Positions 32,212 through 53,698 of a stretch of 64,000 nucleotides of DNA are shown one piece after another (within the stretch, counting starts at the first letter, position 1; every line of letters begins with the position of its first letter). Origin of the DNA: Pseudomonadaceae bacterium (GTDB lineage Bacteria > Pseudomonadota > Gammaproteobacteria > Pseudomonadales > Pseudomonadaceae). The notes below the pieces were generated by a model, which saw only the letters and a program-made list of their open reading frames with translations, was not told the DNA's origin and searched no databases. The translations under genes were made by a program, and so were the position numbers. The stretch lies in NCBI GenBank assembly GCA_019747075.1, contig JAIERF010000009.1, forward strand, positions 1 to 64,000, written 5' to 3'.

Positions 32212-32255
32212 CAAGTCGCAGAAAAGGGTCATGCGTAGATTAAGTACTGCGCACC

Positions 32256-32549
32256 TGGCCACTACCGGTTTCGCCTTTACGGCGAGTCACTTTCTCTTTG
32301 CTTGCGCGAAAGAGAAAGTAACCAAAGAGAAAGCGCACCCGGCATCCGGGTTTCGCTGCGCGAAACTCCCCTCGCTCCGGCACTGCTCCGAGGGTCGTCA
32401 CGGTGGGCCATCCCTGGCCCATCGTTCCTCGTTTGGCATCCATGCCAAACGCCCCTCTACACAGCACCTCCACTCGGCCTCCTGACGGGACCGGGGGACC
32501 GAGGCGCCTGCATAATTTGTGGGAGCGGTTTTAACCGCGAAGCTTTTAA
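32256..32549 (+). repeat. Multi-hairpin repeat element, copy A, ending in a REP-like hairpin
   Basis: Nearly identical by eye to the reverse complement of 52680..52972; contains at least seven consecutive inverted repeats. Confidence 0.92.
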
Positions 32550-32550
32550 G
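32518..32550. repeat. REP-like palindrome at the end of copy A
   Basis: tgtgggagcggttttaaccgcgaagcttttaa, similar to Pseudomonas REP (gtgggagcgggcttgcccgcgaa). Confidence 0.7.
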
Positions 32551-32620
32551 TCGTAGCCAGGCGCTAGGACAAATACTTCATATCAGTAAGTAGGCACATA
32601 ACCTAAAAGAACAGCCCGCC

Positions 32621-50749: not shown

Positions 50750-50970
50750 GGGGATCCGTCCCGTGGGGGCAATTAGCCAGCACTGTACCCTGGCGCCTGG
50801 AGAAAACCCAGCATCGGCAGCAGCAACCGCAGAGACTGACCAGTCTACTTTTGCACGCTGTGCCAGCCCTCTGCTGCAGGTTATACTGCGCCGCCATTTT
50901 TGCTCTAACGCGCGCCGGGTCGTGGCCCTGCGCCCCTCCAAGTTCCTGCCCAAATAAAGGAGCGCGCCCC

Positions 50971-52494
50971 ATGACCGTGATCAAACAGGACGACCTGATT
51001 CAGAGCGTCGCCGACGCCCTGCAGTTCATCTCCTACTACCACCCCGTGGACTTTATCCAGGCCATGCACGAGGCCTACCTGCGTGAAGAGTCGCCCGCCG
51101 CACGCGACTCCATGGCGCAGATCCTGATCAACTCGCGCATGTGCGCCACCGGCCACCGGCCGATCTGCCAGGACACCGGCATCGTCACCGTGTTCGTCCG
51201 CGTCGGCATGGATGTGCGCTGGGATGGCGCGACCATGAGCGTCGACGACATGATCAACGAAGGCGTACGCCGCGCTTACAACCTGCCGGAAAACGTCCTG
51301 CGCGCCTCGATCCTCGCCGACCCAGCGGGCGCACGGAAAAACACCAAGGACAACACCCCGGCCGTTATTCACTACTCCGTGGTGCCCGGTGACAAGCTGG
51401 AAGTGGACGTCGCAGCCAAAGGCGGCGGCTCGGAAAACAAATCCAAGATGGCGATGCTCAACCCGTCCGACTCGATCGTCGACTGGGTACTGAAAACCGT
51501 GCCGGAAATGGGCGCTGGCTGGTGCCCACCGGGCATGCTCGGCATCGGCATCGGCGGCACCGCCGAAAAAGCGGCGGTAATGGCCAAGGAAGTGTTGATG
51601 GACTCCATCGACATCCATGAGCTGAAAGCCCGCGGCCCGCAGAACAAGCTGGAAGAAATGCGTCTGGAGCTGTTCGACAAGGTCAACCAGCTGGGCATCG
51701 GCGCCCAAGGCCTCGGCGGTCTGACCACCGTGCTCGACGTCAAGATCATGGACTACCCGACCCACGCCGCCAGCCTGCCGGTGTGCATGATCCCCAACTG
51801 CGCCGCCACCCGTCACGCTCACTTCGTGCTGGATGGCTCAGGCCCGGCCGAGCTGGAAGCACCGGATCTGGACGCCTACCCGGAAATCGTCTGGGAAGCC
51901 GGCCCGAGCGCCCGCCGCGTCAACCTCGACACCCTCACCCCGGAAGACGTGCAGAGCTGGAAGCCGGGCGAGACTGTACTGCTCAACGGCAAGATGCTCA
52001 CCGGCCGGGATGCTGCGCACAAGCGCATGGTCGACATGCTGAACAAGGGCGAAACCCTGCCGTTCGACCTCAAGGGCCGCTTTATCTACTACGTTGGCCC
52101 GGTCGATCCGGTGCGTGACGAAGTGGTTGGCCCAGCCGGCCCGACCACCGCTACGCGGATGGACAAGTTCACCCGGCAGATCCTGGAAAGCACCGGTCTC
52201 TTGGGCATGATCGGCAAGTCCGAGCGCGGCCCGATCGCCATCGAAGCAATCAAGGACAACAAGGCCGTGTACCTGATGGCTGTCGGCGGCGCCGCTTACC
52301 TGGTCGCCCAGGCGATCAAAAAATCGCGCGTGGTGGCCTTTGCCGAACTGGGCATGGAAGCCATCTACGAGTTCGAGGTCAAAGACATGCCAGTGACCGT
52401 GGCCGTCGACACCAAGGGCGAGTCGGTACACATCACCGGCCCGGCCATCTGGCAGAAAAAGATTCACGACAGCCTGGCCGTCGAAATCAAGTAA
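50971..52494 (+). CDS. Fumarate hydratase class I
   Basis: 'PICQDTGIVTVFVRVG', 'GAGWCPPGMLGIGIGGTAEKA', 'NCAATRHAHFVLDGSGPAELEAP'. Confidence 0.96.
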   Translation: MTVIKQDDLIQSVADALQFISYYHPVDFIQAMHEAYLREESPAARDSMAQILINSRMCATGHRPICQDTGIVTVFVRVGMDVRWDGATMSVDDMINEGVRRAYNLPENVLRASILADPAGARKNTKDNTPAVIHYSVVPGDKLEVDVAAKGGGSENKSKMAMLNPSDSIVDWVLKTVPEMGAGWCPPGMLGIGIGGTAEKAAVMAKEVLMDSIDIHELKARGPQNKLEEMRLELFDKVNQLGIGAQGLGGLTTVLDVKIMDYPTHAASLPVCMIPNCAATRHAHFVLDGSGPAELEAPDLDAYPEIVWEAGPSARRVNLDTLTPEDVQSWKPGETVLLNGKMLTGRDAAHKRMVDMLNKGETLPFDLKGRFIYYVGPVDPVRDEVVGPAGPTTATRMDKFTRQILESTGLLGMIGKSERGPIAIEAIKDNKAVYLMAVGGAAYLVAQAIKKSRVVAFAELGMEAIYEFEVKDMPVTVAVDTKGESVHITGPAIWQKKIHDSLAVEIK

Positions 52495-52532
52495 GTCGTG
52501 TAGCCGTGCCCGCGGTCTGCATGGACCGCCCA

Positions 52533-52565
52533 GACAATCCCCGCCACGTGCGGGGATTGTCGTTT
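52533..52565 (+). terminator. Rho-independent terminator after fumarase
   Basis: acaatccccgccacgtgcggggattgtcgttt. Confidence 0.7.
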
Positions 52566-52679
52566 CTGCAGCAGCCAATCGCACCAACCCGCGGCCGGCA
52601 AGGCAATAAGGCTATGTACCCGTTACGTGTTGCAAGGTATTCGTCCAGTTGCGTTTGACACAGCAGTGAGCTGGCGCGG

Positions 52680-52972
52680 TTAAAAGCTTCGCGGTCAAGA
52701 CCGCTCCCACGGATTTGCAGACGCCTCTGTCCCTGGTCCCGTCAGGAGGCCGAGTGCAGGTGCTGTGCAGAGGGGCATTTGGCCGGGATGCCAAATGAGG
52801 AACGATGGGCCATGGATGGCCCACCGTGACGACCCTCGGAGCAGTGCCGGAGCGAGGGAAGTTTCGCGCAGCGAAACCCGGATGCCGGGTGCGCTTTCTC
52901 TTTGGTTACTTTCTCTTTCGCGCAAGCAAAGAGAAAGTGACTCGGCGTAAAGCCGAAACCGGTAGTGGCCAA
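52680..52972 (-). repeat. Multi-hairpin repeat element, copy B (inverted relative to copy A)
   Basis: Reverse complement aligns with 32256..32549; REP-like hairpin gcggtcaagaccgc at 52691-52704. Confidence 0.92.
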
Positions 52973-53004
52973 GCGCGCAATACATAACTGATACAGCACC
53001 AAAA

Positions 53005-53044
53005 CAAAAACGCCAACGCCCCATCACTGGGGCGTTGGCGTTTG
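53005..53044. terminator. Rho-independent terminator downstream of the peroxiredoxin gene
   Basis: aaaaacgccaacgccccatcactggggcgttggcgttt. Confidence 0.88.
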
Positions 53045-53095
53045 TTCTGCCGTGCTCAGGCCATGGCGCTGTGCCAGGCCTGCGGCACATCAGGC

Positions 53096-53698
53096 TTACA
53101 GGCTGCTGGCGTTCTCGCTCAGGTAAGCCGCAACACCTTCCGGCGAAGCGGTCATGCCTTTGTCGCCCTTCTTCCAGTTGGCCGGGCAGACTTCACCGTG
53201 CTCTTCGGTGAACTGCAGGGCATCCACCAGACGCAGCAGTTCGTCCATGCTGCGACCCAGCGGCAGGTCGTTGACGATCTGCGCCCGCACCACGCCATTC
53301 AGGTCGATCAGGAACGCACCGCGGTAAGCCACGCCGCCTGCAGCTTCAACGTCGTAAGCCTTGCAGATTTCGTGGGTGATGTCGGCCGCCAGAGTGTATT
53401 TGACCTGGCCGATACCGCCGGCATTGATCGGGGTGTTGCGCCAGGCGTTGTGGGTGAAGTGCGAGTCGATCGACACGCCGATCACTTCCACGTTGCGCGC
53501 CTGGAAGTCAGGAATGCGGTGATCCAACGCGATCAGCTCGGACGGGCAGACAAAGGTGAAGTCCAGCGGGTAGAAGAACACCAAGCCGTATTTGCCCTTG
53601 ATCGCCGACGCCAGGTTGAAGTCTTCAACGATTTCGCCATTGCCCAGCACGGCCGCAACGGTGAAATCCGGGGCTTGTTTACCGACGAGTACGCTCAT
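53096..53698 (-). CDS. 2-Cys peroxiredoxin (AhpC/TSA family)
   Basis: 'YPLDFTFVCPSELIALD', 'VCPANWKKG'. Confidence 0.95.
   Translation of the reverse strand: MSVLVGKQAPDFTVAAVLGNGEIVEDFNLASAIKGKYGLVFFYPLDFTFVCPSELIALDHRIPDFQARNVEVIGVSIDSHFTHNAWRNTPINAGGIGQVKYTLAADITHEICKAYDVEAAGGVAYRGAFLIDLNGVVRAQIVNDLPLGRSMDELLRLVDALQFTEEHGEVCPANWKKGDKGMTASPEGVAAYLSENASSL

Follow-up and report, generated by a model that had tools for sequence, protein, structure and literature searches.

A dispersed intergenic repeat of Pseudomonas carries a covarying, strand-specific two-hairpin RNA with putative Rsm/CsrA-binding loops

Most bacterial intergenic repeats have, to our knowledge, no assigned function. Rsm/CsrA proteins regulate secondary metabolism, motility and biofilm formation, and their sponge RNAs (RsmX, RsmY and RsmZ, CsrB and CsrC) are single-locus sRNA genes under GacA. 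These sponges bind CsrA/Rsm through several GGA hairpins, the best of which are ANGGAX hexaloops; RsmE binds with high affinity when such a hexaloop, in which N and X can vary, sits immediately on a stem (PMC4005645). The TwoAYGGAY RNA (Rfam RF01731, clan CL00106; Rfam type Cis-reg) has two hairpins with AYGGAY-type loops in a closing stem, a core that the repeat described here shares. The accessible part of its catalogue entry lists it as a probable RNA of the human gut, gamma-proteobacteria and Clostridiales and does not mention a repeat context (PMC2864571). A separate comparison matched it to the motif bound by CsrA, and CsrA binding was proposed (PMC4333381). In P. putida KT2440, the RNAs pulled down with RsmA, RsmE and RsmI included some from the flanks of ISPpu8 and from a "long palindromic region" (PMC7937890).

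Among described repeats, Ppu-1 of P. putida is 617 bp long, intergenic and structured, with 39 copies, and the accessible part of its description mentions no link to TwoAYGGAY or Rsm (PMC2267715). The P. fluorescens repeats R200, R26 and R178, which we compared by description, are intergenic, 100-350 bp long and present in tens of copies (PMC2718517). No paper joining TwoAYGGAY, a multicopy Pseudomonas repeat and the Rsm-bound palindrome was found in the open-access literature. Here, we describe a repeat family that carries a strand-specific covarying RNA, the near-invariant loop bases of which are those that Rsm/CsrA reads. What appears to be new is that a multicopy intergenic repeat, often arranged as an inverted pair, carries the TwoAYGGAY RNA in Pseudomonas; these strands of work were apparently unconnected before.

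The window, which is the whole stretch of 64,000 nucleotides analysed, holds two copies of the repeat, A and B, with the features given below; R1 is a covariance model built from alignment A1, which is described further on.

32239..32603, plus strand: copy A, whole element, approximate limits (six own-genome copies aligned with flanks)
32371..32473, minus strand: copy A RNA core, closing stem and two A(N)GGAN hairpins (model R1, RF01731, fold z)
32379..32468, minus strand: copy A closing stem P1, 32379-32385 with 32462-32468 and 32390-32394 with 32453-32457 (covariation helices 1 and 2)
32430..32451, minus strand: copy A hairpin P2, loop AUGGAU on C-G (A/B alignment, covariation)
32405..32420, minus strand: copy A hairpin P3, apical part, loop AGGGAU on C-G (covariation, folding)
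52610..52988, minus strand: copy B, whole element, approximate limits, anatomy as copy A (six-copy alignment with flanks)
52754..52856, plus strand: copy B RNA core (model R1, RF01731, fold z)
52776..52797, plus strand: copy B hairpin P2, stem compensated, loop CGGGAU instead of ANGGAN, a predicted weakened Rsm site
52807..52822, plus strand: copy B hairpin P3, apical part, loop AUGGAU, an intact predicted site (alignment, folding)
52943..52955, plus strand: small hairpin that follows the core on its 3' side in the RNA; one pair is C-G in A and G-C in B (A/B alignment)
52691..52704, no strand: REP-type palindrome GCGGTCTTGACCGC (sequence, six-copy alignment)

Copy A consists of one arm, the REP palindrome and what seems to be the outermost part of a second arm that was lost. 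The full form of the element is an inverted pair with arms of about 260 bp and a short centre able to hold the REP, about 600 bp in total. One inverted pair of about 620 bp lies in a relative with a single contig of 6,156,701 bp, which we take to be P. putida NBRC 14164. Judged by length and the accessible part of its description, Ppu-1 resembles this pair (PMC2267715), and we infer that the two may be the same element. The palindromic region and ISPpu8 flanks of KT2440 are probably the same repeat as well. Beyond the REP, copies A and B share some 50 further loosely similar bases (32560-32603 and 52610-52660) that look like the outer end of the missing arm.

The dispersed, intergenic setting and the REP-type palindrome within both copies recall REP, REPIN and BIME elements. 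However, A and B each contain a single REP on inspection, whereas a REPIN has an inverted pair of REPs spaced by about 100 bp, with a RAYT gene in the genome, and their covarying RNA core is separate from the REP and much longer. In contrast to the sponge sRNAs, the element is intergenic and repeated in many copies, each unit having two putative sites.

Copy A (32240-32570) aligns with the reverse complement of copy B over 320 bases with 296 identities and 24 mismatches (94% identity). The original prediction, which gave the coordinates and sequences of both copies correctly, had read three compensatory changes between them. Two are genuine in this alignment: CGCC/GGCG to CGGC/GCCG in the small hairpin (B 52943-52955), and CGTTTGG/CCAAACG to CATTTGG/CCAAATG at the outer pair of hairpin P2 (B 52776-52797). 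The third, GCGGTT/AACCGC to GCGGTC/GACCGC in the REP palindrome (52691-52704), is symmetric, yet the changed pair would close a TT loop of 2 nt, and it therefore reflects the dyad symmetry of the REP and cannot be an RNA base pair. With mismatches placed randomly on 60 local pairs, two such pairs have P ~0.009, so that the pairwise evidence on its own is modest.

A multi-copy alignment was decisive. The 149 distinct units were reduced to 47 representatives sharing less than 85% identity for alignment, and alignment A1 retained 37 cores, including A and B, with cores carrying large insertions or deletions left out; covariation was scored on core columns. The fold is a closing stem around two hairpins, about 104 nt long, and 93.4% of the A1 cells are paired. 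Stem changes are correlated, as had been predicted: 25 of the 32 pairs changed on both sides among these 37 diverged copies, including 10 of the 13 pairs of closing stem P1 (helices 1 and 2). Cells with both-side changes number 216, against 54 in shuffles, and the covariation score is 0.527 against 0.168 for shuffled alignments, none of 500 of which reach it, while structures slid along the alignment score at most 0.111. These controls remove relatedness only partly and the structure was drawn from one sequence; despite these limits, the difference is wide and many types of base pair occur.

In searches with R1, 32 of 146 genomes of the order contained the module, as did 25 of the 91 genera sampled, and several of these 25 have many copies and inverted pairs. 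Alignment A2 comprises 29 R1 matches, nearly all from outside the family, and in it 31 of 32 pairs changed on both sides, a count favoured by the fitting of this alignment to R1. Each of three genomes of another family of the order (G434, G499 and G527) contains between 6 and 25 module copies. Some cores of L019, L077 and L008 carry an extra inserted hairpin with the loop CATGGATG, or a duplicated one, which adds a GGA site.

The conservation of structure does not extend to a protein. We found no consistently open reading frame on either strand, no Pfam match for the ORFs and no third-position excess in the best ORF, where variable sites fall 17/8/15 on codon positions 1/2/3, and a protein-coding repeat is thereby ruled out. 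The stem covariation and the missing coding signal together support the earlier statement that structure, not protein sequence, is maintained.

The strand is a different matter, since the one selected is the complement of that used in the original prediction. Since a G-T on one strand corresponds to an A-C on the complementary one, roughly equal counts are expected without strand-specific selection. On the GGA strand of A1, 59 G-U pairs stand against 4 A-C mismatches, with G-U favoured in 30 sequences and the reverse in 1; in A2, drawn mostly from other families, the counts are 37 and 11. Folding is likewise more stable for the GGA strand than for the opposite strand in both copies (-55.5 against -43.2 kcal/mol in A). 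This bias and the folding stability make the functional strand minus for copy A and plus for copy B.

The loops, which the original prediction did not include, point to function. The loop columns that are fixed or almost fixed in A1 read CANGGANG in both hairpins. A and GGA are conserved in 29 of 29 sequences of A2 in both loops, against an average of 56% for stem columns, although R1 partly rewards conserved loops. Two C-G-closed A(N)GGAN hairpins are present in 296 of 338 units and one in a further 38, and the spacing from GGA to GGA is 25 nt in 251 of the 296. The repeat thus places an A(N)GGAX loop immediately on top of a stem, as is characteristic of CsrA/Rsm sites; copy B has one such loop, the essential A having been lost from the other (CGGGAU), and it may perhaps be a decaying copy. 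A CsrA gene was not found in the element's own assembly, which is 78% complete; the nearest relatives carry one, so its absence may reflect incompleteness.

Compared with TwoAYGGAY, the loops are A(N)GGAN rather than AYGGAY, Y being relaxed to N. The core of copy A scores 102.9 bits with R1 (E 5.7e-22) and that of copy B 98.9 bits (E 5e-21), both copies belonging to the R1 training set. Independently of R1, RF01731 gives 40.8 bits (E 4.5e-4) for A and 31.9 bits (E 0.048) for B, both below its gathering threshold of 43 bits; the fold z values are -6.4 for A and -4.2 for B. Sibling copies reach the threshold (L093 with 55 and 51 bits, L064 with 46, L009 with 44, and others). At E 0.001, RF01731 matches 290 of 400 Pseudomonas genomes, 249 of them above the cut-off, and 0 of 14 controls. 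In one 6,179,442-bp contig (G193), all 78 TwoAYGGAY matches lie at 1.05-5.16 Mb, leaving the first and the last megabase empty, which looks as though the element avoided one part of the chromosome.

The reading that we consider probable is that the repeat is a dispersed element encoding a two-loop RNA that is bound by Rsm protein and acts as a decoy or control site. Copies A and B are single-arm copies of a dispersed intergenic inverted-pair element, with one strand of each arm encoding an RNA of about 104 nt in which a long-range stem closes two hairpins with ANGGAN hexaloops on C-G. Dispersal, the fold, its covariation, the strand and the near-invariant A and GGA are direct results of this analysis; transcription, Rsm binding and a consequence for the cell we infer. 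Once an arm is transcribed, for which read-through from its upstream gene is the simplest route, an RsmA/CsrA dimer should bind the two loops. The outcome would be either a decoy that titrates Rsm protein or a mark that places the host transcript under Rsm control. Should the modules be transcribed and bind the regulator, the dozens of copies in a genome could act as a buffer for it or shift its distribution, which suggests a genome dotted with decoys or control sites for RsmA/CsrA, and the proposal could explain the pull-down of palindromic intergenic RNA in P. putida. The sub-threshold Rfam scores of A and B, the lost A of copy B, the failure to find a CsrA gene in the incomplete own assembly and the co-direction with neighbouring genes that a wider count did not bear out all weigh against it. 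Moreover, in an inverted pair, one transcript would include the complementary arm, and a long duplex could then trap the GGA hairpins. More tentatively, a whole class of dispersed intergenic repeats in Pseudomonas and related families could form a genome-wide array of RsmA/CsrA-binding RNA modules, with copy number and insertion sites setting the level of free regulator or rewiring its targets.

An element acting at the DNA level, with hairpins extruded in single-stranded DNA and recognised with their loops by a transposase or other DNA protein, the GGA being incidental, would also be dispersed in near-identical recent copies within one genome, as is found here. The inverted-pair architecture, the REP within the element and the occupied and empty states of the intergenic site of copy A would likewise suit it, and REP hairpins are recognised by RAYT enzymes. 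We regard it as unlikely, since what stays constant in either loop, and from family to family, is precisely A(N)GGA, with N and X able to vary, a pattern that DNA recognition of folded single strands does not predict. The excess of G-U over A-C points to one strand being read as RNA, although a single-stranded DNA hairpin might also tolerate G-T. No copy was found beside IS4-type transposases at ten loci inspected in five relatives, nor were homologues found in plasmid and phage collections at the sensitivity of blastn.

Both window copies lie between convergent genes, the P. fluorescens repeats are biased to convergent gene pairs (PMC2718517), and the folds are very stable, all of which would agree with a structured 3' end or terminator-like element that shields or ends convergent transcripts and whose loops merely cap stable hairpins. 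This is quite unlikely in our judgement: stability does not account for loops in which A and GGA never change but N and X do, no T-run was seen at the core end on inspection, and at other loci a crude ORF caller gives only a mild excess of convergent context. Copy number and recent amplification could finally be those of a selfish repeat that exploits Rsm binding, for example to regulate its own transcript or a mobilising enzyme, with any host effect incidental, and the KT2440 study asked a similar question about ISPpu8 (PMC7937890). We consider this very improbable, as no enzyme was found inside or beside the element and the intact loops in many families suggest more than recent parasitism.

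The own assembly has 14 stretches matching the element, 11 cores being found by the covariance model, and near-identical recent copies are dispersed within it. In relatives, the units are numerous and frequently make up inverted pairs facing each other, with the opposite facing in some species. Tandem single copies were co-directional with neighbouring genes in 12 of 12 cases in a first count; a second, wider count with a crude ORF caller gave 16 against 13, and co-direction is not claimed.

Copy A lies between a DUF58 gene and a gene with a weak PilZ match. These genes are 410 bp apart here, and in two relatives that lack the element the gap is about 60-150 bp; copy A was therefore inserted here or lost in those lineages. 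Copy B is flanked by fumarase and AhpC genes (50851-53698). In the relatives listed, the fumarase and AhpC-type peroxiredoxin genes are non-adjacent and far apart, which implies that a rearrangement joined them near the repeat. In a comparison with MITEs, which have terminal inverted repeats, a target duplication and a partner transposase, the ends of copy B show weak terminal similarity (GTTATGTA and GGCTATGTA), the empty-site flanks being too diverged for a target-duplication comparison. In two species, the element adjoins the RgsA sRNA gene (L047:1200-1381, by Rfam match; L335:150-345, by eye). At L333:385-2278, an intact acetyltransferase-like gene lies between inverted arms of 325 bp with 85% identity, an arrangement like that of a composite element.
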